Shown here: in pieces, positions 2,774 through 53,336 of the stretch
Position numbering within the stretch: position 1 is the stretch's first letter
How the letters are laid out: the number at the start of each line of letters is the position of its first letter
NCBI GenBank assembly: GCA_026874595.1
Contig: CM049306.1
Location: 36,968,019-37,032,018, forward strand
DNA from: Sipunculus nudus
Taxonomy: Eukaryota > Annelida > Sipuncula > Golfingiida > Sipunculidae
DNA: 64,000 nt
Reading direction: 5' to 3'
Program-made: the position numbers and the translations under genes
Notes under the pieces: generated by a model
The model's input: the letters and a program-made list of their open reading frames with translations, nothing else
Database searches by the model: none
What the model was told of the DNA's origin: nothing

Positions 2774-2916
2774 ATGAGAGGCGTTTGGTTTTGCTGTTTC
2801 GTGTTCTTGGCTGTATCCTGCGCATGCACAGTTGGACGTGGAGAAAGTAGGATACCACCGAGTAGTACGCGACAGAGGTGGGCCCTTCAGAAGTCCCCGT
2901 ATAACTCAAATTTTAC
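2774..2916 (+). CDS. Exon 1 of copy 1: start codon and signal peptide
   Basis: The exon runs from ATG at 2,774 to a GTGAGT donor beginning at 2,917 and encodes 47 full codons plus two bases. The N-terminus is M-R followed by a hydrophobic, cysteine-containing segment typical of a secretory signal. A short linker with PPSSTRQRW and a YNSNFT sequon completed by exon 2 comes next. No homologous exon was found in U2, U3 or U4. Confidence 0.72.
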
Positions 2917-5900
2917 GTGAGTTATTATTATTATAATTATTATACAATGTTGTTCCTCTACAGTGGCTATTTACTTTTCGTTAAAAATGACATTCATTTG
3001 TTCTACAAAATATACTTCATTTTTAATGGATAGGGTTATTTTTATAGGATCTTTGCAAAGTTTGGAAATCAGGATGTATCTGTAATACCTTGGTTACACT
3101 TCATTCCCCATGAAGAGAAAAGCGGTGAGAGAGCGCCATTTATCATTGGAAGCGTAACTATTTCATGATATTTCAAATTCATGCTAGGGCTGGTAGCATT
3201 GAATGTGAATAAAGCTGTTAAATTCTTTATTTTGTATGCTGTTTCCCATGGTATCATTATCAAGTCCGTTTGGTATATTTCAGGTGTAAATGCAGAATGA
3301 ATTACGAATCAGACGATCAGAGGAGGCCCGGCTGGATACATGCCTCGTGTCTTAACATGAGTTCCGTGTGCCTGGAGAAATGTCAGAACAAAACAAGGAA
3401 ATACGATTACGACAAACGCACGGAAAAGATCTGCTGCAAGGAGAACAATAACAACACGGTTCTCGAGGTGAGGGTTTATGCATTATATTTTCCGGAATTT
3501 TCACATCATCGAAATAATTTACTACATCATTAAAGCCTGATTGTTTTGTAACAATTTGTCAGAATCACAGTGAATAATAGTAATTAACAGAAATTTTACT
3601 CAGACTTCTTGAATTCAAGGAACTGTCTTGCATTGTTTACTCCAGCAGTCCTATGCGTGTTTGAATAATTGATAGCCAAAACATGCACCGATGTCCTCTA
3701 AATGCCTCTGTGTACTGTCATTACCAAGGTTAAATACAATCTATGTTATCATGTAATTTGATGACACCCCAGTACTACGTATTGTCACACAGAATAAAGC
3801 GGTTATTTCTGTATTAATGCCCATCTTACATTATCTATCTCACATATAAAACGTGCATATCCGTTACCTCTGTGTCGTCTTGTACTGTAAAATCCTAGGT
3901 TAAAATATCTGTTATCATTTATTTGTTGACACTGCCATACTACGGATGGTCAAATAGAATAGAGCGGAATTTTCTGTATTAATGCCCAGCTTACAGTGTC
4001 TATCTTTAACATTACCTATTTGACGGTGACAATCTCCATATATCCTTTTTAACAGTGGCATTCTTTAACATTATCTAGGTAACTGTGATGATCTATCATT
4101 ACCAGGTCACGGTAACATTCTTTATCATTACCAGATTACGGTAGCATTCTTTTCTTTGTCTCACTCAGAATGGCACAGTGATTGCAATAACATTTTTTAC
4201 ATAACCTAGGTACCGGTAACTTGATGACACGTTATCGTTTCAGTTTACCCTATCATTATTTAAATATCTCGACCGGAATGCTATAGTGGTCAAGAAAACA
4301 TGCTTTATCATTACTAGGTAACTGAAGCATTATTTTCCATTATCCAGGTCAGAATGCTATGTTGGTCACGAAAGCATGCCTTTACATTACAATATTATTG
4401 TGTCATTCACCCTCAATAAAAGTTGTTGCAGTAAATCAATACCAGGTAATAAAGTTATACAAATTGACGTTATACCTAGGAAAAAAAGTTTGCAAAGTGT
4501 TACAACTGTCAATCAGTGTAAGCGGTTAACAGGAATAAATTAAAATTCATTAACATTTATATTTTCATATTACTATTTTCACAACACCTGAAAACATTTT
4601 ATACAAAAAATCGATGCCTTCAATGGACAGTTTTTAAAGTATAATTTTATGTTTAGGTTATACTGAACTGTCAGATCATTTACCAGCAGCCCACCCCGCC
4701 CTGTTAAAATTTAATTTCGGGACCCGCGCTGTGGATAAACCGGCCCCGCTGTGGGCCCTACTACATTGAACCATTACTGAGATATGACTGATTTCATCCT
4801 AAGCAAACGCACGGATAGACGCCACGCAAAAACAATTACAGGTGATGAAACAAAACTTCAGTACAAGATGGGGGTATCCCAGATCAAAAGACATGCACAA
4901 TTTCTGCACAGTACATAAAACTATTCCTGAGAATTTGGCTATTATCTCTACAAAATGCCATACAAATGGACACCAAACCAAAAGCAGGCGTTATCGGGCG
5001 CCATCAATCTTTATTAGGCACCAACTTGCATATGACTCGATAATTATGTCGGGTGAGTGAAAGATCCAGATGTCTAGGAGGAGGTTTAACGAACGCGGCG
5101 ATGGAACTCCCCTGAAATCATGGAACCCACAAAACTCTGGTTAAACGCATACAATTAATTTGCCCCCTTATATCAGATATCATCTTTACCGATAGCAACA
5201 TGTGGTACACAAGCAGATCACAAGAATACGTTTCCATGTACGTGATGCATGTACATTACTGTTTCCAGCTTCACGTTTTGGAGGTTTTGCCCCCTAATGC
5301 TCGGCATACACACTTACAGCTGCCATCTTAGGGGTTATCACGGGTTAATAATCATCATCAGCTAAATGTCTCTTCACACACAAAGCATGCAACGATATAT
5401 TTGGCATGACATGTGTCTGAGCCACCCAGTGCAAAAGTACCAAAACAGCTGACGCATAATTGCATGAGCAATTTCATGGGAAGGTCTAGTTTATATATAT
5501 GAAATATAAAACGATCCACTCAATGAACTTAATATTAATATCATTGTTGAGAAAACAAAGAGCTAGACTTGTTCAATTATATATATATTCGCATGAAACA
5601 TTTTAAGTTTTTTCAATTGTGTCAAATAGAAAGGTACATGGAGAGCGCAGACCTCCGATAATGCGGCTAAAGACCCCATATGGCATTGTCAGAAATGCAG
5701 CTTTTTTTCCTTTAAAAAAATCCTGGTTCCATATGGCGAACTGGATCATCCCCAAAATTTAATCAATTGTTTCTTGATCAATTGTCGAGCTATTCTAGAA
5801 AAACCTCAAAATCCATAAATAACTAAACCGACAAACAAACAGACAAAAAAAAAAATACAAAGAAGACAAACCAAGCCGGTAAAATATATCTTTCTTGGTG

Positions 5901-7518
5901 GAAATAATTAATCGAACTTGTTCATCCTCTACCTGAATTATATTTGAGGTTAAAGTGAAGAAATATACTTTGATTTCAATAATTTTGATGAACAAATGTA
6001 AGGGGTCTCAGACAGACATGTTTAATAAAATATATTGAGGTGTATTAACTTAAAATGAATTATAGTGTGTAAATAAAGTGTAGAAACATAACATCAACGA
6101 TATCCAATCTCATATTATATAGACAGTAGTAAATATAGTTAAGCATCTGTTTATTGTTTTACAGCAGCCGAATAATATGTTTAAAACTACGAGGAATACA
6201 TATATGTCTACCTTCTGTTTCTTTAATTTATTTGAATATGTTTAATTCATGTTAGTACTTTCAAATAATATTTTATTTTTGACTGCTTTAACTGCCTTGA
6301 CTGAGCACCAATATCCTGTTGCTATTATATATCTTGTCCACCTTCACTTCCTTTCAATATCATATGCCTTGGGTCACTGAATGTACACATACACACAGCA
6401 TCACTTCGGTCATAGGATATATACATTGCCAAAATATTCCCTACTTACTTACAAAAAGGAAGGGAGATATACACCATAATCTTCCTATATTAAAGCTAAC
6501 GATGTCACTTAGAATAAAAACCCATTGAACATACGTAGAAACCTAGATCTGTCTCCAAACCTAGCAGTTTTGTATTTTACAGCTGTCCTCTCAGCTTCTC
6601 CACCTAAGTGGTAGGGTCATTACTTTTGTTTAACATAATAAGTGCAATTATTGAATAATACGTATATGAATAGATTAAGAGATCGTTATCTTTATAACAC
6701 TTACATACTCCCTATCGTCAGCACAGTTAACGCGGCATTTTCTATATCATTACCTAGCTTACAGTGGCAGCCATCACCAATTCTTGTCTAACATTGAAGG
6801 GTTACATTGTTAATTACTATACACCGAAGCAATCTTTTTTAAGTATCTAGTTTAGACTGACATATCTTATCACTGCCTAAGAAACAATGATGCTTTATCA
6901 GACCCCTTTACAGAACATTATCATTTTCGGGGTGTAATGGTTATGATTACATTCTTTATCATTACCTTTAATGCGGTTAAATTTATTATTAATACCTTTG
7001 TTACAGCTGTAGATTTTAAATAATTTCTGAGGTAAAAATTACACTCTTTATCTTAACCTGAGTAACAGGAACATTTATTATAATTTAATCTTTGTAACAG
7101 GTGTCGTTCTTATATCATTTTGGATATAACAGTGAGAGGTTTTATCACTACCAGGTTATGGTAGCATTTTTATCATTATTAGAGTAGTGATAATTAGATT
7201 ATGATTGTAATTCTATATCTTTACCAGGTTACAATGGTATATAGTTTGCTTAAGTAACAGTGGCATTCTTAATCATTACGTGTATTACATTTGTATTTTT
7301 GTATCTTTACTTAGGTTACAATGACGTACACAGCTTCGTCTGTGCAAGATGAATGCCCCGACAGAACGGGTACCATGGGAACGTTTACTGCTGACTGTAC
7401 CACTGTCAACCTGGACCAGGACTGTCGCCGAGGGAGAAAACACAGGGACAGGGATGATAGAATATTCAGAGTAACCTTTTTTGGTAGCAAGAGAGAGAGT
7501 GGAACTAGAAGGGGCTAA
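2774..7518 (+). CDS. Secreted cysteine-rich glycoprotein, copy 1 (3 exons, complete; family not recognised)
   Basis: Coding exons are 2,774-2,916, 3,284-3,467 and 7,315-7,518; they join in frame (143+184+204 nt) to 176 codons plus stop. Residues 1 to about 20 form a signal peptide: MR, then a hydrophobic core, then small residues and cysteines before TVGRG. The mature part has ten cysteines spaced C-X-C-X18-C-X6-C-X3-C-X16-CC-X23-C-X13-C-X8-C, which would allow five disulfides. Three N-X-S/T sequons (NMS, NKT, NNT) fall in exon 2, and the C-terminus is strongly basic (RRGRKHR). Introns are GT-AG: intron 1 is 367 bp (phase 2) and intron 2 is 3,847 bp (phase 0). I do not recognise the family. 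An extracellular role (defence, matrix or effector) is possible but not shown. Only this copy has all three exons in the window. Confidence 0.75.
3284..3467 (+). CDS. Exon 2 of copy 1: seven-cysteine core
   Basis: The exon follows a 'tatatttcag' acceptor and ends at a GTGAGG donor. It is 184 nt, exactly the length of exon 2 in U3 (25,837-26,020) and U4 (53,153-53,336). It encodes CKCR, ASCLNMSSVCLEKCQN and an ICC motif. By my count 17 of 61 residues differ from the U4 copy, yet all seven cysteines and their spacing are kept. Confidence 0.8.
4690..4760 (+). repeat. GC-rich block in intron 2 (U1, shortened)
   Basis: A 'cccgcgctgtggataaaccggc'-type GC-rich patch interrupts AT-rich intron. Longer versions with repeated 'gcggggc' words lie at 27,125-27,290 (U3) and 51,855-52,025 (U4, reversed). 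It is probably a DNA-transposon relic whose U1 copy is internally deleted. Confidence 0.4.
4780..5130 (-). repeat. Dispersed repeat R1 (reverse orientation, U1 intron 2)
   Basis: About 350-400 bp with recurring words: a 'tgagatatgactgat' segment, 'ggcgccat', 'gcaccaactt' and 'acgaacgcggcgatgg'. The repeat is found in forward orientation at 9,310-9,700, 20,030-20,420 and 51,490-51,830, and reversed at 27,290-27,560. A short remnant lies at 13,990-14,050. No terminal structure or coding frame is visible. Confidence 0.5.
7315..7518 (+). CDS. Exon 3 of copy 1: three-cysteine C-terminal domain and basic tail
   Basis: The exon follows the acceptor 'tttacttag' and begins GTTACAATGACGTAC; it encodes 67 codons and ends with TAA at 7,516-7,518. 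The first 40 or so residues (SSVQDECPD, TADCTTVNLDQDC) are nearly identical in all three copies. The last 25 diverge. The Arg/Lys-rich tail begins RRGRKHRDRDD. The sequence around the acceptor resembles the repeat words filling the preceding intron. Confidence 0.8.
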   Translation, partial: VTMTYTASSVQDECPDRTGTMGTFTADCTTVNLDQDCRRGRKHRDRDDRIFRVTFFGSKRESGTRRG

Positions 7519-7732
7519 TTATTGTTACCACAATGAACTCTAAAGGCAAATAGAGAAAATACAGAAAAGTGTGTCAGAAAACCTACCCCCTTTAGCTGCT
7601 AAACTTCTGCTATGCTCAAATATGCTTTACATATTATTTTTCAAACTGATATTTGTTCAAAGATTTCTCTGCAAAATCTATTCTGTTCGAGGTTGATAAA
7701 AAATGCATTCTCGAAAACATCGGTATTTATCA

Positions 7733-7738
7733 AATAAA
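7733..7738 (+). other. Poly(A) signal AATAAA of copy 1
   Basis: AATAAA lies 215 nt after the stop codon and is followed by 'ttgaatttaattctaaatg' and a T/G-rich stretch. The same signal and surroundings recur after U3 (33,592-33,597) and, on the minus strand, after U4 (47,088-47,093). It is therefore the probable 3' end signal of the family. Confidence 0.7.
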
Positions 7739-8094
7739 TCTTGAATTTAATTCTAAATGTAATCTTTTGGTTTGTATATGTATGGACAAATGTTAACATG
7801 TATAATGAATGTGTTCATTGGTGATGCCTGCAAACTTTACATTTAAAGTTCTTATCTTAAATACTGTTTGATATACATACTGTTTGATATAAATATATAA
7901 AATCTAACCAATATTTGACTTCATCATTGTATAATTGTTATTCGAAATGACAAATGTCAATATTAAAATAACATTGATTTCCATCCATTAAGTAGTTCGG
8001 AAACGTTTTAAAATATGTAAAAAGATGTATTAAAATATAAATAACCTTACAATCCTTTTCTTAGTAGATAATTTACCATATATCAATTAGGATT

Positions 8095-8575
8095 TATATG
8101 TTTACAAAATTATGTTCCAAAATAGGATGAGACCGTTTAGTTCTTTCAGAAAATATTTGGTTGGGTCGTTTTTCTATTTTTTTATAATACCCAGATTATT
8201 AAATTGGCGATACGCTTCGTTTACATAGCCATTATTATTAGTATGACAGTTGCCCCCCCCCTCCTTTATCGGAAGGTCGGATAACAATATCATTATTATT
8301 CTGTAATTCAGTCGTTTCTTCGCGTTCATATGCAGTTAAATTAAATTCTGGTTTGGCTATTTTTTTTCTATAATTTCAATTTTAATCCTCCTGATTTTGT
8401 TTCCCGCCCGGGTATCTACTGTTACTTTCCGTTTTATTTTTTATCATTTTGTTTGTATTGTCTGCACGTTGTATCTCAGTGTTCATTAAGGTATTCTCTC
8501 AAGGGAAGTCTCCGGAAAGAGTCTCCCAGATTTCTACATAACTCTATATTATCCACTGCTGTCGTCGGGCAAAAC
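8095..8575 (-). mobile_element. Penelope-like element remnant, N-terminal RT part (U1)
   Basis: This is homologous to 33,960-34,500 in U3. There the minus strand encodes 'FCPT', then 'LEESFRRLCLTEYF', then 'NYIVIRPSDKRGATVIQNKNDY', a block order typical of the start of Penelope-like and related reverse transcriptases. The U1 copy carries frameshifts and stops and is dead. It ends at about 8,575 next to an oppositely oriented C-terminal fragment. Confidence 0.6.
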
Positions 8576-8599
8576 TTGAGACTTGCTATATCAATCTGC

Positions 8600-9079
8600 G
8601 TTAAGCTTTAACAGGATATGTTCCGACAAAACTGATAGAAATCTTTACATCGAGAAACTGCAAAATATTTTTATCAATATGGGATTCAAGCTGAAAACCT
8701 TAGAAAAACACATAGGAAAAGCCAATTAAATAATACTCAATTCTCTACTCGCTTCCAAAATCAAAACAGAAATCCGCAGCACACCATTAGTTACAACATA
8801 TCATCTACGTATACTAAAACCTCTAATAAGAATTATTCATGATTTAAAACCTATACTAGAATCAGACGAAACATAAAGACCGCTCTTTCCTGATAGACCA
8901 CTTCTCTCGTTTAAAAATCCTCATAATCTTCATAAGAAATTAGTAAAAAAAAGCATAGCTTTAATTGTGTTGACACCAACGGAACATACCCGTGTAAAGT
9001 GCCGCGCTGCCGCACCTGCCCTCCCATTCTTTACTCACTCGACGGTTCCTTAGCAATAGTGAAGAAAGCCTTAAATTAG
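8600..9079 (+). mobile_element. Penelope-like element remnant, C-terminal RT part (U1)
   Basis: Plus-strand frames read 'STPLVTTYHLRILKPLIRII', then 'RPLLSFKNPHNLHKKLVKKS', and in another frame 'NGTYPCKVPRCRTCPPILY' (8,969-9,079). These match the conserved run PLV-TYHP, PLL-FRRP-NLRD-LVR and PC-KPRC-TCP found after the RT fingers and palm of Penelope-like elements. Frame changes show decay. The fragment points away from the N-terminal fragment at 8,095-8,575, so the element is rearranged. Confidence 0.65.
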
Positions 9080-9700
9080 ATATGCCCTGAAATAAAGGGG
9101 CAGTCATAAAATCAAGACACAAACTTTATATTACAAATTACAAAAGGGTTATGAATGCTCTGTTAGATATTTATTTTGATATTATCCGTGTTTTTGAGTA
9201 ATTTTTTTTTCAATAACTTATGGTTAAATTATTTTCTTTTCCATATTTTAGGCATCTTTAGTCAGTCTTCATGCTGCATTCATACAGTTCAAACAATGTC
9301 CGATCTCTTGCATGCATATATGTCTGGGCTTATTTTGATAGTAAGGAGGCAGACTAATTGGAAACGCCAAAAAGTTATGCGGATACTTTATTTTCATCCG
9401 AGTTCTGCCACCACATTATTTATTTCCCGAGAACTCCTCTGACACCCCTAGATCGATCATTCTGAAACCCGGCACATTCATCCAGTTATATGTGAACTGG
9501 TGCCTTACAAAGATTGATGGCCCTACCTACACTTCCATTTTGCTTGGTGTCCGTATCTGCGTCTTTTATTGTAATTAAACCCCCTTATTCTAGAGTGTTT
9601 AATGTACTGGGTTGAAATTGTGCATGTCCTTAGTTCTGGGATAATTCCATCTTGTTTTTAAGACGGGTGGCGCCATCTCCAATCGTTTTTGCGTTGCCTT
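9080..9700 (+). repeat. Unit-end repeat block containing R1 (U1)
   Basis: This block matches 19,740-20,400 at the end of U2 almost throughout. Shared pieces include 'cgtgtttttgagtaa', a 'cattcatccagt..atgtgaactggtgcct' region and 'ggtggcgccatc'. The first 200 bp also match 48,640-48,830 and, reversed, 31,310-31,480. No coding frame is conserved. Confidence 0.55.
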
Positions 9701-10310
9701 TAACCCTGTGACCTCAAAATCGAAACCTCTGGCCGTAACATTTGACGCGCTGACAAGGAGCGTATGCAGGATTTAGAAAAAAACGGGAAGGGGGGGGGGG
9801 GGGGTTCCAACCCAAGTGGACCAAAGAAAAAACGAAAAAAGGTTCGAAGTTCCGGAAGGGGGGGGAGAGGTATAGAACACACATTTTCGTAAAATTAAAA
9901 AAAGGTCTCGGCGACTCAAAAAAAAAGGGGGGGGGGGGGGGTACTCCTGGATTACCCCTGGATCCGCTTCTGGTGATCTCATAATCGACAGTGTTCTTCA
10001 TCCGATGAGTGAGCCAAATGAGAGAGATGAAGGTTTTGGTGAAATGAGTTGGCTTTAGATAGATCCACAAGTTTTTTAAGAAGCGGGTCCTGTGGCCTTG
10101 ACCTTTGCCCCCGTGACTTCAAATTCGACAAGATGCTTCATCTGTGGATTAGAGAGCCATATGTTAAAGATGTAAAGTTTGCTCAAAAGATTTGGCTTAA
10201 AATGCGTCTATCAGCTGTTTACAAAAGTGGGTCTTGTGACCTTGACCTTTTACCCCTGACCTCAAAATCGATAGGGTTCTTCATCTGTGGACATGTTAGC
10301 CACATGTGAA
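9690..10310 (+). repeat. TTGACCTTTGACC satellite with poly-G inserts (U1)
   Basis: Tandem, degenerate units of roughly 110-140 bp each contain 'ggtcctgtggccttgacctttg', 'gacctcaaaatcga', 'ttcttcatctg..gagccatatg' and 'ttggctt(a)aa(a)atgcgtc'. Two poly-G tracts (about 9,790-9,804 and 9,928-9,941) and a GGATCC end sit inside. The same satellite is at 21,180-21,680 and reversed at 58,560-59,400. Open frames here are artefacts of the G tracts. Confidence 0.6.
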
Positions 10311-10494
10311 GAAACGGAGGTGTTACTATATCTCCTCCTGCAAATTCGAAAAAAAAGAAAAATGTGAGAATCTTCATAATTATCCATTGTTTTCTAATTG
10401 TGCATATTGATATATTAAATATTATCGTCCGAAAAAGTAACAAAAGCTTTGTAATTTTGACACCTATATTGGTACAAAACAAAGGATTATTACT

Positions 10495-11330: not shown

Positions 11331-11454
11331 CGTGGCGGAGGCTTAGATTTCTAAGAATGCACGTTTCTAGTATTAAATTGAACCTTTTTGTATAGCTGTA
11401 AATATTGCAGTATAATATTGTTACAATATTGCAAGAGCAGATCCTCATTAGATA

Positions 11455-11458
<4 letters not shown>

Positions 11459-11495
<37 letters not shown>

Positions 11496-11500
11496 TATAC
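11459..11500. repeat. (TA)n microsatellite
   Basis: A run of alternating TA lies immediately 3' of the antisense exon-like segment. The spurious isoleucine/tyrosine tail of open frames here comes from it. Confidence 0.9.
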
Positions 11501-11828: not shown

Positions 11829-12575
11829 GTGTTCAACCCCCCCCCCCCTTTTTTTTTATTCGGCGCAACCTTTTGGAAGGGTTTCAGGCAAAATTATGTG
11901 GCCTGGACCCCCCCCCCCACCCACCTTTTTGGGACCTGGAGACCTTTTTCTAAGGAGTTCTTTATTCCTCCTTGGTTGGACACCCCTCCAATCATAAATC
12001 CTGGAATAGCCCCTGGCGAATTTCTCTTTAAGTCACTCAAGAGGGCGGAGCTTCAATTTACGTCACGAAAACTGCCAGTCGAACACCAATCGCAGAGTCA
12101 TACAGATTAAGTGGGCCGCTGATGTACAGGTGGTGCTCTTCCTTCTAGCTAATTCCAGGCTGTTCCTGTAACAGAGAATCAGCAAATGAGACCAAACTTC
12201 CTAACTCGCACGTCAATGCTGAGTACAGGGTGATAAAAATGTAAAGGCTCACTGTATGCAATCTTATGTTAGAAGGTAAAGGAAATTAAAATGAAATTGA
12301 AAAACAAATACATATTTAAATTCATTTTTAAGAAAAATACGGAGAAGAATAGTATTTTAATATGTTTATTGATATGTTCCGAACAACCCCTTTGCTGTCA
12401 GTTCTGTCTGTCTTGGTGATCCCATATGCAGGCATCCTTTACTTGTTAGTAACACTCATAATTATAAGTCCTCTGTATAAAGTACACTCTGTGACCTGGC
12501 AAGGACTGCTTCATTCTCGCCAACTGATTGTTCATGTAAAGACGTTTGCATCCATGAACTGTATCGGTGATACAC

Positions 12576-12583
12576 TGACGTCA
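12576..12583. promoter_or_regulatory. TGACGTCA (CRE-like) palindrome in U2 upstream tract
   Basis: A perfect 8-bp cAMP-response-element consensus lies in a segment shared with U3 (23,652-23,659) and is degenerate or lost in U1 and U4. An 8-mer can occur by chance, so its conservation in only two units is weak support. Confidence 0.25.
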
Positions 12584-14188
12584 GCATTTTATTATAACTA
12601 ATGATATTTATTCAATGTCATAAGATCAATCAAATGACTGCTTCGGATGCGCTTGGGTGGCATGAGGCCGAACGTGAACTGTATCGGTGTAACTGTAGGT
12701 GTGTCTTTGCTGGTTTATCAATACTCTCCTGGCCACAATTTTACAGGGTTCATTGAAAGTCAAAAATCCTAGAAGCCGTTGTTTTTGGTCACCGCAGGTC
12801 ACAGTTCAAGGTCAGGGTCAGAAAAATAGTCATTATTTTCATCATTACTTTGTTAATATTGGTCCTTTCTTCATAAACTTAAACTCATTTTTTTCCTCTG
12901 CGTCTTCTCCATGAAATGGTCCACTCATTGTTTCTTAACTTTATGTCACTTTGTCAGTATGTCTGTCTTTCTCTCAGTTGCTCTCCTATCTGCCTTCTTG
13001 TTGGTTCTTGCTTCATACAGTTAAGCTTCTACAGACCACATTTTTGCAAACATCCTTTTGAAAGTAATGCATCTTACGCGTACACTAATATCTCGGACGT
13101 GATTTTTCGGTTTCGGAAAATAGCCGTTCGGGGGCATTGCATACGAAACAAGAAAACATATTGTTTTTTGGCCATATCTCCGACGCAATATAGCTAAATT
13201 ACATAAACTACAGCTTGCATTTTCCTCTGTGTCTTCTTCAGAACTTGATCAAGTCATCTTTTCTCAACTTTGTGACACTTAGTCAGAATGTCTGTCACTT
13301 CGATCGAAACACTTCAAAATGTTATTTTCCTCAAAACTTTGTCAATTCTGGTCCTATCTTCAGATACTTGGCTCATTTTTTTCACCTTCAACTTCTGTAT
13401 AACTTAATATAGTCAACTGGTCTCAGTCACATTTTTAATATGTCTGTCTGGGTGTGTCAATTTTGCATTCTTGCTGGTTCACGCCTCTGTAATATAGCGA
13501 TCTACAGGCCACCGTTTACCGGGAATCTGAATTATAAAATATGTAGAACTTCAAGGTGAAGTTCATGAAAACACGTTAAATCATTATTTATATCGTAACT
13601 TCATCAATATTTGTCCTATTTTTACAATCTATGGCTCATTTGTACCTCTTTGTCTTCTTTGTGACATTGTTATTTTATCTGTCTTCAAATCTTGGTCAGA
13701 GTTTTTCTGGTAAGCGCGAGACCACTGGTCGTCTTGTTTCTTTGTATTTTATTTCCTATTTAAAAGAAGATTACGGTAGAATAAATCCATAATTAATAAT
13801 AATGCTGAAAAATTGATTTGATTTTGTGTCTGATCAATTCATTAATTCTTATAACGATGGAATAGAAAAACTAATTATAAATATGTCTAAATAATGATGT
13901 GACCATAATTAGTGAATTTCTGTTCAATATTTGTTAATGGATAAGAGTTTTTATGAGAGATATTGTCAAATGTCGAATATAAAGTTAGAAAACGCGGTAA
14001 CGAACGCGGCGGTTGAACCCGGCTGAAAACATAGCATCCGCAAAGCTTTGTTTGTGCGCATACGATTGGTCTGTCTTCCTTCTATCAAATATCAACTTTT
14101 TCGAAAGGTTCATGTGGAATCCAAGCAGATCTCGAGATTTCGTTCCCATGTACGTGATGCAGTCATGTTACTTTTGCCACCTTTACGC

Positions 14189-14291
14189 TTGGGAGGTTTT
14201 GCTCTTGGTCACACACACAGACAGCTGTCATATTACGGGTTGGGAGGTTTTGCTCTTGGTCAGACACACAGACAGCTGTCATATTACGGGT
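14189..14291 (+). repeat. 51-bp tandem duplication
   Basis: Two nearly identical 51-bp units start at 14,191 ('gggaggttttgctcttggtc') and 14,242. They differ at a few bases such as cacac/agaca. The other units have a single copy of this segment (for example 5,280-5,330 and 27,728-27,785), so the duplication is specific to U2. Confidence 0.8.
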
Positions 14292-15469
14292 TATCACGGC
14301 TTAATAATTACCAACAGCTAAAGGTCTCTTCACACGCAAAGCATGTAACGATATATTTGGCATGACTTGTGTTCTTTGTGTCTGAATCTCCCGGTTCATA
14401 TAAACTAAATCAGCTGACGCATAATTAAATGAGCAATATCATGGGAACGTCTAGTTTATATATATATTAAACAATGTAACATTCGACTGAATGAAGCTTT
14501 AATTAATATTATTGGTAGAAAACATGTCGAAAGAGATTTGTTGCACAATATATTTTTTCGCATGACAAATTTACAGTTTGTCAATAGTGTCATGACAGGA
14601 AAGCACCAAGAGAGCGCAGACTTCCGATAAGGCTGCTGATTTCATATGGCATTATCAGAAATGTAGCAATTTTTACCTTTATAAATTCCTTGATCCAGAT
14701 GCTGATCCGGATCTCCCTCAAAATTTAATCAATTGTTTCTTGTACCGTTGTCGAGCTATCCTAAATAAATCATCAATATAAGTTAATAACTAAACAGACA
14801 AACAACAAACAGACAAAAAAGCAAACAGAAAGCAAACCAAAGCCGGTAAAAACATAACTCTTAGGTGAAGATAATCAATGGAATATGTTCATCTATTTAC
14901 TAAATTATATCTTTAGGTTAAAGTGAAGAAATATATTTTGATTTCAATAATTTTCTTGTACAAATGTTGAGTCTCAGACAGACTTGTTTGATAAAATATA
15001 TTGAACTGTATTAACTTAAAATGAATTATATTTTGTAAATAAAGTGTAGAAATATAACATCACTGATATCAGTTCTCATATTGAACAATTTAGGTAGACA
15101 GGTAATGGAGGTAAGCATATGTTTACAGTTCTACAGGATCCGAATAATATGCTAAACACTTCTAGGAATACACATTATGTCTACCTTGTCCTGGATTCTG
15201 TTTCCTTTATTTATTGAATATTCTTAATTCCTGTTAGTAGTTTCAAAAAATTATTTATGTTTAACTGCTTGAACTGCTTTGTCTGAGCACCATTATCCAT
15301 TTGCTATTTTTTATCTTGTCCACCTCACTTCCCTTCAGTGTCATATGGCTTGTGTCAATGAATGTACAGATTTCATCATTTGGGTCATAGGATATATACA
15401 TTGCCTTAATATTCGCTAAATTTTCTTTAAATAAAATATATTAGGATACACCGTTGAATGATTATGTAC

Positions 15470-15660
15470 AAATGGACTATCGGAAGGTCTGATAACAATG
15501 TCATTATTATTCTGTTATTCAATCATTGCTTGGCGTTCATCTGCGGTTAAATTATATTCTGGGTTTTCTATGATTCAGTTTAATCATGCCTCGGAATGTG
15601 TTCATGTATAAATTTACTTTAATACGACCCGGTAGAGGTTTCCAACTGTTGTTATCTGTT
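15470..15660 (-). mobile_element. Penelope-like element remnant (U2)
   Basis: The 'atcggaaggtctgataacaatgtc' region corresponds to the RT 'IVIRPSDK' block of 34,140-34,200 on the minus strand. The following bases match 34,200-34,340. It is short, truncated and not translatable over its length. Confidence 0.5.
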
Positions 15661-17590: not shown

Positions 17591-17629
17591 GGGGGGGGGG
17601 GGGGAGTAGATTATTGCATGATCACACTA

Positions 17630-17673
<44 letters not shown>

Positions 17674-23659: not shown

Positions 23660-25836
23660 GCATTTGATTTTCACAAATGATATTTATTCCATGTCACATG
23701 ATTAGTCTCATGGCTGCTTGGGTGGCTTGAGGTCGAACGTGTCTGAGAGTAACTATCAGAAACCGACGGAAGCGAACTTCTGATAACAGTAGTAAACTGT
23801 TACGTGGTGAGTAAGTTAGTTTGGTGCTCGCCGGAAATCTTTGATTTCGGCAAGCATGTTGGTCAGTTCCCAGGTATGTTTGTATGTTTGTGTTTTGTGT
23901 TTGTGTTTGTTGGTTTGTCTCCTGGCCACAATTTTAAAGCAATGGATCTGAAACTTACCTGGTTGATTGGAAGTGAAAAGTTCTGGAAGTCTATTGTTTT
24001 TGGTCAACATCGTTCAATGGACAAGGTTAATAAAAAACCGCCACGTTTTATTTTCATCACAACTTTGTCGATATTGTCCTATCTTCACAAATTTAGGCTC
24101 ATTTTCTTCCTCTGTGTCTTCTTCATAAATAGTCAAGTCATCCTTACCTAATTTTCTCACTTTGTTAGTATGTCTGTCTTTCTGTTAGTTGTTCTCAATT
24201 TCGTCTGCTTATAGTTTCTTGTGTCTAACATATATCATCCTACAGGTTACAATTAAGAAGGAATCCTGTTGAAACTTAAACAACTTATGCCGTACGCTGA
24301 TATCTCGAAAGTGATTTTTCAGTTTCGGAAAACAGCTGCTAGAGGGCGTTGTACACCAAAAACTACAACATATGATTTTTGGTCATATCCCAAAAACTTT
24401 CAACTTAAATTACATGAACTGAAGTTTGTTTTTCTTTCTCTGTGTTTTCACCAAAACATGATTTTGATATTGTCATCTTGTGTTGCTACGTCAGTTTGTC
24501 TGTCTGCACGTTGTTCTCCATACGCCTGCTTGCTGGTTGTTGCGTCTTATGTAAAGCATAATACATGCCACCGTTTTGCAGGAATCCTTTTGAAACTTTA
24601 ACATCTTATGTCATACACTAATATGTCAAGGGTTTTTTTTTGTATATTTGGGATAAGGCCGCTTGGGGGCGCTGCACTACAACGGGTCATATCTCCGAAG
24701 CTATAAACTTTAATTACATAAACCAAGATTCTTTCTCTTGATTTTCTTCATAACTTTGTCAAGTCATCTGGTCTCAACTTTGTCGCACTTTGTCAGTATT
24801 TCTATCCCTTTTAAACACTTTAAAATGTTTTTCGCTTATTACTTTGTCAATTCTGCTCCTATCTTAACAAATTCTGGCTCATGTTTTTTCACCTTAGTCA
24901 TCTGCATTACTCAGTCTAGTTAACTGGTCTCAGCTTTGGGTCACTTTGTCAATGTCTGTGTGTCAGTTGTCCTCAATTTGGCTTCTTGCTGATTCTCGCC
25001 TCTGTTATATAGCATTCTACAGGCAAAAGTTTCCAGGAATTTCTTTGTAATTTTTACTGTCGTATATGGAAACGATTTCTTGAAGCTATATGTGTATTTT
25101 TAAATAGATGAAGGTCATTAAACCACATCACATTTTTATTTCCATCTTAACTTATTAATTGCTCCAATCTTTACAAACTATTGCTCATTTTCCCCTCTAA
25201 ATTATTAGTTTAAAAATAAGATATATATTAGTTATCTGTCTTCCAGTCTGAGTCAGAGTTTTTCAGGCAAGCGTGTGACCTCTGGTCGCCTTGTTTCTCT
25301 GGCTTTATATTTCCCTACATATTATAATGCTATAAAAATCGATTTGATTATGTGACAGATAAATCCATTAATGCTTAAAACAATACAATAGCTATACTCA
25401 TTACAACTATATCTGAATAATGATGTGAACATAATTACTGCAGGTTTTTGGTTCTCTATTGGTCTATGGATAAGAGTTTTTATGCGAGATATTGTCAAAT
25501 GAACTGCAAGGCAATGCGATGAACTGTTGTTTGATTATCCTACAAAAAAGGTTGATATGTTAAAAAGAGGTTATTTTTATACGAGCTTTGCAAAGGTGAG
25601 AAATAACGATGTATATGTGATATCTGGGTCATACTCCATTCACAAAAAAAAGCGGGGACAGAGCGTCTTTTTTTATTTGAAGCTAAACTTTTTCATGATA
25701 ATTTCAAATTTGGTGCCATTTCTTGCTAGGGCTGGTAGCATTGGATGAGAGTAAAACTGTTAAATTATATTTTTCGTATAATACTCACTGCTGTTTTCCC
25801 ATGGTATCATAATCAAGTCTGTTTGATAGTTTTTAG

Positions 25837-33317
<7,481 letters not shown>

Positions 33318-35749: not shown

Positions 35750-36085
35750 AAGAATGTCTTATTTGCCGAATGGGTTATAAAATTTCTGGTAGACTCCCAT
35801 CCAGCTTGACCAGTATACATAACCCCAAAGTTCAAACAATCATTGTTCTTATAAAACAGCAAAAAAAAAAACTTTGCCCGAGACTATCATTTTTTTTCAT
35901 CCCCGAAACGAAAAGTGAATTTTTTATTTGCCGAATGGGTTATAAAATTTCAGGTAGGCTCCCATCCAGCTTGCGCATGAAGGGTTACATGACCCTAAAG
36001 TTCAAACAACATTGTTTTTATAAAACAGCCAAAAAAAACTTTGCTCGAGACTATCATTTTTTTTCATCCCCGAAACTAAACGAGT
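35750..36085 (+). repeat. 165-bp tandem duplication
   Basis: 'atttgccgaatgggttataa' starts at 35,761 and 35,926, and the following text ('cccatccagcttg', 'aagttcaaacaa', 'gagactatcatttttttt', 'catccccgaaac') is repeated in step. The 155-codon open frame spanning it arises from the duplication of a stop-free segment and shows no family motif. Confidence 0.8.
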
Positions 36086-43380: not shown

Positions 43381-43384
43381 GTGA

Positions 43385-44620: not shown

Positions 44621-46790
44621 ACATTTTGCGATAACTTGCTGAAAGACAATGCAACGAACAAAATCTGAAGTGGTTTCTTTGCTAAATGCTTTCATCGAAA
44701 TATATGAACTTTCTTTCTTTTTATCTGGGAGAGTTGTCAATTTTGCATCAGACCTGCTTATTCCATGACAATTTACAGTACTTAAACCAAAAAATGTAAT
44801 ACTGGGCCTATCTTTTTTACATTGGCAGCTATACTTTTCGCGTACAAGAGTTTTCAATGACATATGCATGTGTATATAAATAACGCATGTGTCTGTTAAC
44901 ATGCCTTAGACTAAACCCTCAGCTGACTACACTGAATAAACATCATGTTTCACAATGTCGCCTGAGCTTCAAATAATACAAAGCATCTTTCATATAATTT
45001 CACGGTAGAATGCTTCTTTATACAATCGTTAAATCTATGATATTTCCCAAGAAATAAAAAGCTGACGGACCTATGTTGTTTATCGGGAAAAAAAACTTCT
45101 CACTTAAAAATTCGTACACCCAGTATGCCTCACTTCTCTTTCCAAAGTTTATTTATTTTTGTGAGATTTCTGGAATAGAACAATTTTTCTTTCTATGTTG
45201 ATATTTTTGGGAGGGTTTTCCTAGAGAATTCTTGCAGAGGTAATCTTTATATCATCTAAGTGAAACACATGAAAAAAGTTCCCGCAAAAGCCTACAAAAA
45301 CCTACAAAAATATGCATCAGATAGAGCCGTGGATTTTCCATGGGTGCAGCTAGTATTGAATTATTGTCATGTTATCTGTTGAATGTTCTTGTTAATATAT
45401 TCACTTCAGTCCAAACCAAAAATATTCATAAAATTACTTAGCCAACCCTGCATTACCCCAGGAAATAATTTATGTTTAAAATAATTATATACTTTATTAT
45501 TTCGATAGATAAATTCCAAAATCTCATTCCGTAATCAGGGAGCTGCCAATCTGACTCTACCACAAGCTTATAGAAGAGTACATGAAAATAAATACACACC
45601 ATATTCTGTATAAGCAATATATGTATGACCATGATTAGAAATCACATATTTACACATTTGTTTTACACTTGTGCATTGTTGCTCTCCCATAAGCTTATAT
45701 AACCGTCATTGAAAATGAATGCACATTAAACTCATTCTTCAGATTTCTGTGCGGTTCACTATTAATATTAAATAACATTTTCCAGTCATCAAGTTAGTGT
45801 ACATATATTAGCTTCTGAATCATTCATATTAATTTATAATAATTTTATTAGTTTACTGATGGTCTTCTTATATATTGTTTCTAAATTAAAGGAGAAAATA
45901 ATTAGGCACCTTTTCAATTATCAGATTTATGAAATGTGATAAAAAGGTCAAACAATCACAGTGTACCCACCTAGGTTAGTCTATTTTTAACACTGAAGTG
46001 CTCAAGTGTAGGCCTAAAATTGCCTGACACAATGAATTAAGGGTGTTACACTGATTGTTAAAAAATGAAATCAACTAAATATTACTTATATTACAGTGCT
46101 GAGCATGTCTTGTAATGCAGAAAGTAATTATTTTGTGGTTAAAAATTAAATTTTAAATAGTTATACCCAGTAAAAATGTCAAATTTACCTGGTACCCTGA
46201 GGTTGTTAGCCCCACCATAATGCCTTTACTGTTTTACTGTCTTACTGGGCAATCAAATACATGTGTTGACAGGTATATCAATGAAGATGATGAAAAGGTT
46301 GGGTTAATGGGACAAATGCGGTTTGTACTGGTCAGATCAAGGCATTGTTAACAATATGCCATGATCCGTCTACCCTGAACGCTCTGTGGTTGCTAGGCAA
46401 CTACACCCTGCCAGCAGCTGGGGGTGTCAGTTACCACTGCAGCACACACAGCCTGTGGCTGAGGCATTAAGCGACCAAGAAATTTGCTGTATCAACTGCT
46501 GTGAGCTATGTAAAAGGAGCAAGGCTGTTCTGGGGGCAAGGCTGAACTGTAATACAAACCTCGAGTAAGTAAACCGTGACAAACATATTTCTCTGCTTGG
46601 CTGATTTAATATTTCCTGTGCTGAACTACTGCACACCAAAAGTTTGATAAGGATCCTGGTATTATTTTGCAAAATGTCACCATTAGTGTGTATGGTCAAG
46701 TATCCGGTCGCATCATACTTTGAAACGAAATTTTGTGCACGTATAAACCCAAAATACCGCACTCAGAAAAAAAGATGAATATTTATTAAC
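44620..46790. other. Spacer before U4, no gene supported
   Basis: A more GC-rich patch at 46,370-46,570 is open for about 60 codons (46,386-46,568) but lacks splice sites and family motifs. Nothing else stands out. Confidence 0.4.
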
Positions 46791-47087
46791 ATTTTATCTG
46801 ATATAGGTAATCAAATTACTTAATGAATAAAGATCAATGTTAATTAAATATTAACATTTGTCAATTTGTATAACAATTATATGATGATAAAGTCAAATAA
46901 TGGTTCGATTTGATAGAAAAAGTTATGTCAAACAGGAATTAAAAAACTTAAAAGAAAATTTTAACATAAACTGACATGACTCATAAAAAGTTTTCTAGCA
47001 TCACCAATAAACACATCTATCATTCATGTTGGCATTGGTCTATACATACAAAAACCAAAATATTGCATTTAAAGATTAAATTCAATA

Positions 47088-47093
47088 TTTATT
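47088..47093 (-). other. Poly(A) signal AATAAA of copy 3
   Basis: TTTATT on the plus strand, in the same context as the signals after copies 1 and 2, 284 nt beyond the stop codon. Confidence 0.65.
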
Positions 47094-47376
47094 TGCAAAA
47101 TACAGATAAAGTTGAAGGTCTGCCAAATGTTTTCTAGAATTATATTTATCATTTTTATCAACTTCCAATCGAGACGGCTTTGTAGAGAAATCTTTGAACA
47201 ACTATACGTAATATTAGTATGAAAAAAATATAATTTTTGTGTGTTTTGAGCATAGCAGAGGGGAAAATCAGTCCAGGTCCTCTGTTCAGCCCCAAACTCT
47301 TTTCTTAATTTGCCTTCAGAGTGACTGTGGTACATTAATAAGTGTCCACCACGTCGACGAAAACTCCCGAAACCAC

Positions 47377-47556
47377 CTAAGCTATGCCCCTATGGGTTGC
47401 TTTTAATCTTTTATCATTCCTGTGTCTGTGTCTTCTCCCTCGGGGACAGTCCTCGTCCAGGTTGACAGTGGTACAGTCAGCAGTAAACGTTTCCACGGTA
47501 CCTGTGCTGTCGGGGCATTCATCTTGCAGAGACGAAGCTGTGTACGTCAATGTGAC
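47377..47556 (-). CDS. Exon 3 of copy 3
   Basis: 59 codons plus TAG. Encodes VTLTYTASSLQDECPD, ETFTADCTTVNLDEDCPRG, then a basic RRHRHRNDKR tail. After the stop, DNA similar to the tails of copies 1 and 2 continues, so the early stop is a derived change. Confidence 0.7.
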   Translation of the reverse strand, partial: VTLTYTASSLQDECPDSTGTVETFTADCTTVNLDEDCPRGRRHRHRNDKRLKATHRGIA

Positions 47557-50500
47557 CTAAGTAAAGATACAAAAATACAAATGTCATCCACATAATGATT
47601 AAAAATACTACTGTTACCTAGGCAAACTATATGGTGAACCACTGTAACCTGGAAATGAGGTAGAACCAAAAGTTATCGCCAATGCACCGATAATGATAAA
47701 TATGCTACCATAACCAGGTGGTGATGAACCTGTCACTGTTACCTCAAAAATATTATAATAACTATACCTGTTACCAAGGTATAATGATAATGAATGTCAC
47801 TGTTATGTAGGAAAAGATAAAGAGTGTAATTTGAACCTAAGAAATTATTTAAAATCCGCAGGTTTAGCCAAATTAATAATAATAAATATCACTGCAGCAC
47901 AGGTAAAGATGAAGCGTGCCATTGTAACCTCAGAAATGATATAAAATTACAGTTATATCTTGGTAATGATAAAGAATGTATATATACCCATTATACCCCG
48001 ATAATAATATCCTGTTAAGGGTGTGTTAAAGTACCATTGTTAATTAGGTAATTATATGAAAAGTCAGTCTAAACTAGATAAGTAGCAAGATTCCTTCGGT
48101 GTATAGTGATTGATAATATGACAGTAAGACAGTGTTATAAAGTTAACGATTCCTTAATCTATTTATATACTTATTTTCCAATAAATGTACTTATTATGTA
48201 ACACATAATGGAACTACCACTTAGGTAGAGAAGATAAGAGGACATGAAAGTTTATGCTGCTTTATAAAGCTCAAGACTGCTAGGTTAAGAGACAGTTCTA
48301 TGTTTCTTAGTGTGTTAAATTTGTTGTCATCTCTGTGATAACGTGATACAAGTGGAGTCAATATAGGGGGATTATGGTAAATATCACCCTGACCTTTTGG
48401 CAGTATTGGGGAGTGGGTGAGGGGTGTTCAATTTAATCATACCCCTCCCCATCTAAATTTTTTAGAAGAGGAAGTGGAAACGAGGACTTTATAGCTGAAG
48501 ATAGAAATATCTGGCACTAATTTGTTTTTTTTTTCGACTGAGTTATAATTAAAAACGAGCATGGTTATAGCAATAATCCAATTTTGACACCAGATAGGGA
48601 ATAACATGAGAAGTGAGTACAAGTGCCCTATAAAAAGGGTCATGCAGTCATAAGTTAAAGACATAAATACACAAACTTTCACATGCATTTTACAACATTA
48701 CAAAGTGGTATGAGTGCCCCATTTATGGATTATATACTCGATTAATTCTGCTGGGTATTTATTGGATATTATCCGTGTTTTTGAGACTATATTTTGAATA
48801 ACTAATAGTTAAATTAACTCTTCCAATTTTGAGGTGTCTTTATTTGGTTTAGATACTTATTTTGGGTACACATAACGTTGGTATACAGATTCATTATCCA
48901 TAGTACAATAAAAATATGCTTTAGGTTATAAGAATACATGTGAGTTGACATGTTTCTTGTTCCAATTATTGAGACTGAATAGTCTCTTCACAAGATTCGT
49001 AGTTCAAAATATGTGTTCCACTGAGGATGTGCCACCATACCCCATGTATCTTTGTAAGATACAGCCTATAACAAAAGGGTCATTTGTTCTGGCATTGCTA
49101 AAAAAAGTCAAGGCTAATGGAAAAGTGCAAGAGAGATTTGTAGAAGGAGAAAAAAAATATATCTAGGAAAGTTACTAGGTTTTGTGAAATAATAATTAAT
49201 TGAATCACAGAAGGAAAATATGTCTTTTTTCAGTTAAGGTATATATATGTGTGGAGGTGCCAGCATCAGGATACTGATAAATATGTAACTGTTTGTATCA
49301 TTTAAAGTTTATTGAATATGTAAGAGAAAGGACAGACATGAACAGTTACATACGAGAAAGAGGTACATAATTGATTCTCCACTCAACTCGGGAAACAAAT
49401 CGGTAAGATAATATTTATCATCTTATGTGTTTCTTTTGCAAAAAAAAAAAGACACGCTATTCGAGCCGCCAGCGATGGCGGACACCCTGACTTTAAGGTC
49501 ATCTCCGTTTCTGTTTTTACAACAAAATGTTAAACATTCATTTGGTGGACTGTTAGCTGTATGCGCCGATCTAGGTGTTGAGCGAGGCGCCTTTCTTTGC
49601 AATCTTGTTATATGGCTGTGTGACTTTATTCGCCACCAAATCAAAGTGTCCATTCACATTTAAGGAATCGTAGCCTGACCCAGATATATTCCAGGACAAA
49701 TACCTAAGGACATGAAATTACATCACTCTGTCAGTACAGAACCATTTATCTTATCAAAACCAACTGTTGCACTGAAATTTACAAGCTATGACATGTCAGT
49801 TCCAGGTGCAATCGCACACCTGTATGCTACGCACTCAAAATAAGTAACTATATGGATTATGGTTGCTCCTTAATTCCCAAAAATGTTATTTATTACATGT
49901 TTATTTATATTCTATGTATTATTCACCTATTTGCCTTAAGGAAACTTTTTTCTCGAACGTGTGATTTATTTTGAAGGTATACTACGTTACAATATTTTGA
50001 AAAATCCTTAAATTTTAAGACCAGTTTAATGTACTAATGTATGGTAACATTTTAAGTTTCTGATTCAGATCGTTGGATTCTCCTAATGTTCCTAATGTTT
50101 TATCGCATTTTGCATTAGTTAACATGTTAGTTTTAATGGAAGTACAGCTTTACATACTCAAAACATCAACATCTATTTGGTGTCTGTTATTAACAATTAT
50201 TCACTTTTTATCTATTTAATTATTTTCCATTGGAACATAATGAATCAACGCTGTTTCCTAATGTATTACATTTAAAGAATATGACACAAGCCATACCATA
50301 CTAGAAGGAAGTAAAGGAGGACAGGATATAAAATAGCAAATGGATAATGGTGCTTAGCAGTTGAAGCAGTCAAACATAAAATATTTTGGGAAATATTAAC
50401 ATGAATTAAGCCTATGCAAATAAATTTAGTAAACAGAATCCTGGATAAAGACTTAATTTGTTACCTTGTAGTATAGTGTTGAACATATTATTCGGCTCCT

Positions 50501-53336
50501 GTGAAATTGTAAACATATGCTTAACTGTATTTGAACCTGCCTTTCTATTTTTTTTAAATATGAGAACTGATATCGGTCAAACTATATTTCTACACTTTAT
50601 TGACAAACTATAATTTATAAGTTAGTACAGTTCAATATATTTTATTAAACAAGTCTGTCTGAGACCCCAAACAAAAGAGAACAAAATTATTGAAATCTAA
50701 GTATATTTCTTCACTTTAACCACAAAATATAATTAAGATAAGTGGGTGAACATGTTCCGTTAGTTATCTTCACCCAGGAGGTACTGCTTTTTACCGGCTT
50801 TGTTTTTTTTCTGTTTCTTTGTTTTTCTGTTTAGCTTTTAATTGAGTTTGATGATCTTTTTCAAGGATAGTTCGGCAATGGTACAAGAAGCAATTAAATT
50901 TTGGGGCGATCACCGTCTGGATCTAGAAATTTTTTAAAGGAGAAATACTGCATTTCTGACAATGCCATACGGGGTAATCAGCTGCCTTATCGGAGGTCTG
51001 CGCTGTGTGTGCTTTTCTATTTTGAAATTATTGACAAACTGTTAATGTGTCATGCAATTAAATATGTCATTACACAAGTCTCTTTCACTGATTTTCTCAA
51101 CAATAATATTAATAATAAGGTTCATTCAGTGGAATTATACCTGATTTCATATATACTAGACGTTCCCATGAAATTACTCATTCAATTATTGTCAGCTGTT
51201 TTGGTACATATGTACTTAGTGTCCAGTACATAAGTCATGTCAAATCTATCGTTACATACTTTGCGTGTGAAGAGACCATTAGGTTGTGGTGATTATAAAC
51301 CCGCGATAACCCTTAAGATGACAGCTGTGAGTGTGTGCGACGCTAAGGATTAGGAAGCAAAACCTCCCACCCGTGAAGCTGGCAATAATTATGTAACTGC
51401 ATCACGTACATTCCAACGAATTCTCGTTGTCTGCTTGTGCACCATATGAAATTTTGATAAAGGTTATATTTGATAGAAAGCAGGCAGACTAATTGTATTC
51501 GCGAAAACAGATTCAGTATTAAGGATTTTATGTTTTCAGCCGAGTTCCATCGCCGCGTTCCTTGCCGGAGATCACTTCTTAGACCGTTGGACGGATCGGC
51601 ATAATTATCGAGTTACATGTGAGCTGGTGCCTAACAAAGAATGATGGCGCCACCTAAACCTCCTTTTAGCTTTATGTCCATTTGTATGTTATTTTGTAGT
51701 GATAATAGTCAATTTCCCAGTTGTTTTATGTACTGGGCTGAAAGGGTGCATGTCATTAGCTCTGGGATACCTCAATCCCGTACCTGAACTCCTTTTTGCG
51801 TGATGTCCATCCGTGCGTTCGCTTATGAAGAAAATCAATCATATCTCAGCATTGGTTTAATGAAGTAGGGCCCGGCGCGCGGCGGGTTTTGACCCGCTCC
51901 GCGCGGGCCTCCGTGGGCCCAGGCTTAGGATTCTGTGCGGGGCTGGCTATATCTAGAAAGAGCGGGGCGTTGCGGGCCGAAATAAAATCTGTGCGGGGCG
52001 GGGCTGGCTGCGGGTAAATGATCTGGCAATTCAGTAGAACATGAACATAAAGTTATACTTAAAAATTTTTTGTTTGAAGACATTAATTTTTTGGTATATT
52101 TTTTCAGTTTTTCAGGTGTTGTAAATATAGTAATATGAAAAGACTAAATTTTTATTTATTCCTGTTAACCACTTACACTGAATGACCGTTGTAACAACAC
52201 TATGCAAATATTCCTTTTCTAGCTATAACGTCAATTTGTGTACCTTTGCTACCTTGTATTGGTATACTAATACAAATTTATACGGGTTATGAGAGTGTAT
52301 GACACCGTAACATGGTAATAAAAAGCACCTTTTCTTGACCACCTTTTCTGACCGAGATAATTAAAAAAAAGCTATCGTTACCTGAAAACGATAATTAATC
52401 ATAATGTTGCCGTTACCTAGGTAATATGAAAAATGTTATAGCAACCACTGTGCCATATTGAGCGAAATAATGAAAAGAATGCTACCGTGATCTGTTAATG
52501 ATAAAGAATGCAACCGTGACCTGGAAATACTTGAACATTACCGTTACCGAGATAATGTTACAGAATGCCACTTAAAAATAGGTAAAATGGAAATTGTCAC
52601 CGTAAACTTGTTAATGTTAAAGATAGACAGTGTAAGATGGGCATTAATACAGAAAATACCGCTGTATTCCGTGTGGCCATACGTAGTATGGCACCGCATT
52701 ATAATAAATGATTCCATATATACTGTATTTTTTATAGAGGTAATGACAGTACATTACGACACAGACGTAAAGGACATGGACGTTTTTACTGTAAGATATA
52801 CACTGTAAGATGGGCATTAATACAGAAATACCGCAATATTCTGTGTGACCATAGGTGGGACGGGAGTGTAATCAAATTACATGATAACACAGATTGTATT
52901 AAACCTTAGTAATGACAGTACACAGAGGAAAAGCGCGTTTAGCCTTCTATTATTCAAACAAGCATAAAAATGCTGGTGTAAACAAGTACAGATATTTCCT
53001 GGTGTTCCAGATGTCTGAGTAAAATTGACCTTTTGTTTGTTTCTATTCAATATGATCCTGACACATTGTAACAAAACTATCAGACTTAAATGATGTAGTA
53101 GATTTCTTAAGTAATGGGGAAATTTGGGAAAATATGATGCATAAATCCTCACCTCGAGAATCGTGCTGTTATTGTTTTCCTTGCAGCAGATCTTTTTCAA
53201 GCGTTTGTCGTCATCGTATTTGCTTGATTTGTTCTGACATTTCTCCAGGCACACGGAAATCATGTTAAGACACGAGGCTTGTATCCGCCAGGGCCTCCTC
53301 CGATCGGCTGATTCGTCATATAATCTGCATTCGCAC
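47377..53336 (-). CDS. Secreted cysteine-rich glycoprotein, copy 3 (exons 2-3; exon 1 not found; short tail)
   Basis: Exons are 53,336-53,153 and 47,556-47,377 on the minus strand, with consensus splice sites (TTTCAG, GTGAGG, ACTTAG) and a 5,596-bp intron 2. All ten family cysteines and their spacing are kept. Differences include CECRLYDES at the start, the change of the NMS sequon to NMI, and a TAG at 47,377-47,379. The TAG ends the protein about 11 residues earlier than copy 2, before the Gly/Arg tail. The exon-1 region is missing, as in U3: the sequence runs from the exon-2 side to about 53,650 and then to a (GT)n tract (53,676-53,702) and upstream-tract sequence. Whether the copy is expressed is unknown. 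Confidence 0.55.
51490..51830 (+). repeat. Dispersed repeat R1 (U4 intron 2)
   Basis: Same repeat as 9,310-9,700 and 20,030-20,420, here in plus orientation because the unit is inverted. Contains 'ggcagactaattg', 'gagctggtgcctaacaaag', 'atggcgccacct' and 'tgtactgggctgaaa'. Confidence 0.5.
51855..52025 (-). repeat. GC-rich block in intron 2 (U4)
   Basis: The most GC-rich stretch of the window, with repeated 'gcggggc' and 'gcgggtttt' words and 'cccggcgcgcggcgg' at one end. Counterpart of 27,125-27,290. Confidence 0.45.
53153..53336 (-). CDS. Exon 2 of copy 3
   Basis: 184 nt without stops, GT-AG borders at the same bases as in the other two copies. Encodes CECRLYDES, QASCLNMISVCLEKCQN and KICC. 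Shares 'PWR.QAS' with copy 2 against 'PGWIHAS' in copy 1. Confidence 0.75.

Follow-up and report, generated by a model that had tools for sequence, protein, structure and literature searches.

The closest described systems are two multigene families of small cysteine-rich proteins, CRP-I of mussels and the mytimycins. In the available part of the source on CRP-I (PMC10138031), the genes show presence/absence variation and include pseudogenes, and coding exons 2-4 follow exon 1. The proteins have the cysteine array C(X3-6)C(X1-7)CC(X3-4)C(X3-5)C, a predicted knottin fold, and a conserved signal and propeptide. The mytimycins, as far as the available part of PMC8004829 describes them, also show presence/absence variation, are under purifying selection mostly at cysteines, and have a non-coding exon 1. 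Their mature part of 54 amino acids carries 12 cysteines (ten invariable plus accessory ones) and is followed by an anionic EF-hand extension (PMC8004829). Here, we compare with these systems a gene family of Sipunculus nudus, three copies of which lie in a window of 64,000 nucleotides (the whole stretch of DNA that was analyzed) on contig C1. This family is real, is under constraint, and has no match in the libraries searched.

The initial annotation had proposed a three-exon gene in three copies. The common limits of the 184-nt exon 2, the shared splice phases, and the ten-cysteine spacing bear this out. The copies and the features around them are the following.

2762..2916, plus strand, copy 1 (k06) signal-peptide exon, with a cag ending at 2761, the ATG at 2774, the donor gtgagt from 2917, and a phase-2 end
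3284..3467, plus strand, copy 1 exon 2, 184 nt, carrying seven of the ten cysteines
7315..7518, plus strand, copy 1 exon 3, with the final three cysteines, an Arg-rich tail, and the stop
11914..15418 (about), plus strand, fourth repeat unit, whose flanks align to 2059-2485 and 5087-6443 and which misses the stretch with exons 1-2
25501..25515, plus strand, junction of the signal-exon loss in copy 2, where k04 has about 600 bp including exon 1
25837..26020, plus strand, copy 2 (k07) exon 2
32468..33131, plus strand, local tandem duplication of about 330 bp, 93% identical
33105..33317, plus strand, copy 2 exon 3, carrying F85C as an eleventh cysteine
47377..47556, minus strand (read 47556-47377), copy 3 (k08) exon 3, with a shorter tail
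53153..53336, minus strand (read 53336-53153), copy 3 exon 2
53654..53764, minus strand, site of the signal-exon loss in copy 3, with a left border unlike that of copy 2

In all three copies exon 2 is 184 nt long, is bordered by AG and GT, and has phases 2 and 0. The aligned exons contain no gap columns and are 78.8% identical three ways; DNA identity around exon 2 is about 77-78% between the copies. Among 3166 other windows of 184 columns, which overlap one another and all come from the aligned stretch 3034-6250 (exon 3 lies outside it), none is gap-free and none reaches the identity of exon 2. The encoded proteins differ pairwise at 19, 17, and 17 of 61 exon-2 residues, in agreement with the earlier estimate of about 17-19. 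The array copies listed have a cag resembling a 3' splice site 11-12 nt upstream of the ATG, and because of this position a non-coding exon is likely to precede the signal exon in the array genes.

The three copies belong to a much larger array. With positions 2700-3700 of the window as the query, all 26 matches in the source genome (1.43 Gb, 153 contigs) fall within C1 36.858-37.158 Mb. The array thus spans about 300 kb, reaches far past the window, and contains at least 15 exon-2 copies by tblastn, denoted k01-k15. Its DNA was read as 24 segments of 10 kb each in the neighborhood of the window, with three 10-kb stretches within 37.10-37.15 Mb left out; exon 3 was located in this DNA for k01-k12. 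Protein search yielded four more exon-3 places (37107221, 37122914, 37141318, and 37149761), the last two with stops. Copy k01 is on the minus strand, k02-k07 are on the plus strand, and k08-k15 are again on the minus strand, so that the suggested direct-plus-inverted arrangement holds for the window and for the array.

Smaller rearrangements are also seen. The tandem duplication at 32468-33131 doubles the first nine codons of copy 2 exon 3, the second set being 32772-32798. Two-copy tandem repeats are present at 53918-54171 (125 bp, 98% matches) and at 35752-36080 (165 bp, 87%). An isolated signal-exon-like match, for which no adjoining exon-2 match was reported, lies at C1 36866713-36866787 on the plus strand (E 0.004); it is perhaps a relic of another array unit.

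The array mixes seemingly working genes with damaged ones. Five of the 15 copies look intact, one is probably intact, and nine are broken or miss a part. As read, all exons are open and all borders canonical in k01, k03, k06, k09, and k10, the tail frame of k10 being altered. In k13, exons 1-2 are open, and the exon-3 place found by protein search is open as well, which makes it the probably intact copy. Frameshifts, stops, or a lost start affect k02, k05, k11, k12, k14, and k15; in k12 the AG ahead of exon 2 is missing as well, and the donor that follows exon 1 of k04 is not GT. The exon-2 frameshifts of k11 and k12 fall at runs of A (C1 37.0807 and 37.0995 Mb) and could be either real or assembly errors. 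In copies 2 and 3 exon 1 is absent. Since the left borders of the two deletions differ, the losses were either separate events or a single one that was later enlarged in one copy. Within the window, then, only copy 1 shows its signal exon, as had been noted; however, this reflects the deletions in copies 2 and 3, and 13 of the 15 array copies have the exon, in some of them broken.

One explanation of this picture is that most of the array consists of decaying repeat units, with copies 2 and 3 and many others being relics and few genes working. The missing signal exons, the disrupted reading frames and splice sites listed above, and the window unit without exons 1-2 all fit it. On the other hand, the exons of copies 2 and 3 are still open and their splice sites preserved, five copies appear intact as read, and omega is below 1 over nine copies. 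We consider such decay an evenly balanced proposition, and it is compatible with the role in mucus or matrix discussed below for the intact copies. A quite different explanation of the signal-less copies is that they serve as alternative cassettes whose exons are joined by splicing to the signal exon of the neighboring upstream unit, so multiplying the secreted variants. The ten-cysteine head would then be an undescribed disulfide-fold module joined to freely evolving exon-3 tails. We regard this combination as very improbable.

The array genes share a fixed cysteine framework. In the eight array copies tabulated, the spacing is CxC-18-C-6-C-3-C-16-CC-23-C-13-C-8-C. The ten cysteines are invariant in all eight, whereas 58 of 109 columns vary (hypergeometric 3e-4); this count omits k10, which nearly duplicates k09, and sets aside column 16, a cysteine in four of the eight copies and outside the ten. 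The idea of a fixed scaffold with variable loops is thereby upheld. The claim of an identical ten-cysteine spacing stands for these eight copies, but copy 2 adds an eleventh cysteine to it. Copies k01, k03, k04, and k05 have an extra cysteine at exon-2 position 16, and the second framework cysteine is lost in the frameshifted copies k02 and k15. With their odd cysteine, five array copies could form bonds between molecules. Structure prediction, which had been recommended as a check, was of little help: AlphaFold models of exon 2 and exon 3, made for the separate exons of the three window copies rather than for a spliced protein, are poor (mean pLDDT 50.7 and 43.7), and no fold emerges from them in support of the proposed domain.

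Substitution patterns point to constraint. Pooled over all pairs, the Nei-Gojobori dN/dS ratio is 0.84 for exon 1 (8 copies), the least constrained exon, 0.49 for exon 2 (11 copies), and 0.54 for the first 48 codons of exon 3 (11 copies); the pooled values for the window trio are 0.75 and 0.62. The ratio exceeds 1 for three exon-2 pairs, k06-k09 (2.12), k06-k08 (1.41), and k08-k09 (1.18). These values rest on 2 to 4.5 synonymous changes, and we do not accept them as positive selection. Codon models were fitted to nine copies, k01 and k03-k10. The frameshifted k02, k11, k12, and k15 were excluded, as were k13 and k14, for which exon 3 was not included; k05, k07, and k08, with exon 1 broken or absent, were retained. 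In the MG model, the log-likelihood is -1236.95 with omega free and -1245.35 with omega 1, a gain of 8.4. In the MGK model with kappa fixed at 2, it is -1231.23 at omega 0.6, the best of six grid values, and -1236.45 at 1.0, a gain of 5.2. Omega in these nine copies is near 0.6, and a value of 1.0 is rejected. A dN/dS ratio near 1 together with random cysteine changes, which the initial annotation would have counted against the family, is not what we observe, the ten cysteines being fixed in eight copies.

The family is not confined to the array. Protein search of the source genome gave at least 62 matches, those outside the array having individually weak E-values (0.004 to 0.9). An exon 2 of the type CxC...C...C...C...CC or an exon 3 of the type C...C...C was read at C1 37.178, 37.217, 49.86, and 50.05 Mb and likewise on C10, C14, C15 (exon 2 only), and C16. 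Wherever borders could be read, the intron phases are the same as in the array, and exon 2 begins with G, C, or T. Two types of relatives used as protein queries (L040 and L033) recover the array at E 0.002 to 0.9 and connect other clusters. Outside the array there are at least 13 exon-2 places, plus two more at C1 49.8625 Mb and on C15; the source genome as a whole has at least 30, some of them broken, of which 15 are in the array. An alignment of nine members (A4) includes six distant ones that share 31-39% identity with copy 1. In it the cysteines are in register at nine positions, except that L045 misses its fifth one, and the eighth cysteine is shifted by gaps. In another relative (L047, C14 67181650-67182050), exon 3 contains the C-x13-C segment as three in-frame repeats, which raises the number of cysteines. 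The family occupies at least five large contigs, and the array of about 300 kb is a birth-and-death expansion of it. The description of the family as a young local array is at best incomplete, given relatives of such divergence and with the same phases at other places on C1 and on C10, C14, C15, and C16, and given the identity of about 77-78% between the window copies in the DNA around exon 2.

The copy 1 precursor has 176 amino acids and consists of a signal peptide identified by eye, a short basic linker, the ten-cysteine domain, and an Arg-rich tail. The domain comprises 98 residues with a calculated pI of 5.3, forming an acidic core, and the tail comprises 30 residues with a calculated pI of 12. 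The precursor contains four N-glycosylation sequons, which may be used. Because the protein start is hydrophobic, as judged by eye, the family proteins are probably secreted. Six array tails measured past the last cysteine have 22-33 residues. Ten tails that we chose for composition, five from the array and five distant, contain 43-79% Gly, Arg, and Lys and have pI 11-12. Among the relatives, the tail of L034 contains GRRGPGG repeats, that of L033 has K/R runs, and that of L035/L044 (C1 49.864 Mb) exceeds 300 residues, with repeats of roughly 31 residues rich in Pro, Gly, Arg, and His and containing NQT sequons. The tails of L034, L033, and L044 look matrix-like.

The best, if tentative, explanation is that the protein is a secreted domain, locked by disulfides and bearing a cationic tail, that acts in mucus or the extracellular matrix. 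The precursor would be secreted through its signal peptide, and the even set of ten cysteines would lock the head into a stable disulfide domain. The variable cationic tail could then bind polyanionic partners, for example mucin, sulfated glycans, or the surfaces of microbes, and the protein would serve in mucus or the extracellular matrix. We give this role, read from sequence, somewhat less than an even chance. The array tails are short, unlike those of typical structural repeat proteins, and gene turnover and variable residues fit defence proteins too.

The main rival explanation is a secreted defence protein, in which the cationic tail meets microbial surfaces, the disulfide domain stabilizes the molecule, and turnover and loop changes track pathogens. 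A birth-and-death array with broken copies, cationic tails, and the parallels with CRP-I (PMC10138031) and mytimycins (PMC8004829), as far as the available parts of these sources go, favor this possibility. Yet the core is acidic, the cysteine framework is unlike those described for CRP-I and mytimycin in the same parts, some relatives carry long repetitive tails, and nothing at the level of the whole gene points to positive selection (pooled exon-2 omega 0.49, 11 copies). We consider defence possible but somewhat less probable. The matrix or mucus role is slightly preferred over it because the tails of relatives are repetitive, sequon-bearing, or rich in Gly/Arg and because a gene-wide sign of positive selection is lacking.

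Two known families bear some likeness to the motifs observed. The pattern R-x-P-x-x-I-x-x-A-x-C resembles IL-17, and the CxC at the domain start and the Y-T-A-S-S ahead of a cysteine resemble TIMP/NTR. The IL-17 model (PF06083) has 21 matches in the source genome, 18 of them above the cut-off, and the TIMP/NTR model (PF00965) has six, two of them above it; none is in the array or its relatives, and both candidates were rejected. The 18 IL-17 loci lie at C4 56.95-57.08 Mb and on C5, C11, and C14, several of them in clusters. The RAG2 PHD finger (PF13341) reaches 18.2 and 15.7 bits in one member against a cut-off of 27, and the His of W-I-H-A-S-C is replaced by Gln in 9 of 11 exon-2 copies; it was rejected as well. 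Big defensin (PF14862) has no match at E 0.01 in the source genome, the control genomes being equally without one, and is not among the Pfam results for family proteins. A haemocyanin model, used like that of big defensin as a lineage marker, gave nothing in the source genome or in the controls.

These results also bear on a further explanation, namely that the family encodes a rapidly duplicating secreted signaling protein or reproductive ligand. A small protein of disulfide type with a putative signal peptide and with basic sites in the linker and tail would suit such a function. However, no cytokine or hormone family exceeds the cut-off in the Pfam scans, the 18 IL-17 loci include no family member, and the tails vary in length and composition, all of which makes signaling unlikely. 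More generally, Pfam scans of the family proteins gave nothing above the cut-off, and PDB profile searches produced one chance-like match (E 0.69) with one of two alignments and none with the other. The initial impression that no known cysteine-rich family is recognizable therefore agrees with the searches of these two libraries, which revealed no catalogued relative. Ten longer open reading frames of the window gave two weak Pfam matches, both under the cut-off, and the 85 pattern matches from a scan of viral contigs included no relative. A literature search by description, sequences not being searchable there, retrieved no account recognized as describing the ten-cysteine family, and the available part of PMC5549309 contains nothing bearing on it.

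In summary, the family displays the features of a secreted cysteine-rich multigene family: a signal peptide (by eye), fixed cysteines, and tandem copies. It brings to the known families of this kind a strictly conserved cysteine framework, to which the Pfam and PDB searches revealed no relative; should its fold turn out to be new, a single structure would annotate the entire family. Seemingly working, truncated, and gene-less units stand side by side in the array, making it a good case for the expansion and decay of secreted multigene families.

Compared with the available descriptions, the family resembles CRP-I in being a probably secreted multigene family with pseudogenes and in its likely layout of coding exons 2-4 after exon 1. 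Its ten cysteines, by contrast, follow a different order and spread across 98 residues, and it has a basic tail; moreover, the signal and propeptide of CRP-I are conserved, whereas exon 1 is the least constrained exon here (pooled omega 0.84). The spacing does not fit the CRP-I array as given in that source, and membership in CRP-I was rejected. Membership in the mytimycins, judged by the part of their description available, was rejected too: the family lacks the 54-residue mature part with 12 cysteines and the EF-hand extension, having instead a 98-residue domain and a cationic tail, with no EF-hand among its Pfam results. In other respects the mytimycins, so far as that description extends, come close to it: both are multigene families with ten invariable plus accessory cysteines, constraint mostly at cysteines, a C-terminal extension, and a non-coding exon 1, which is likely in the array genes.
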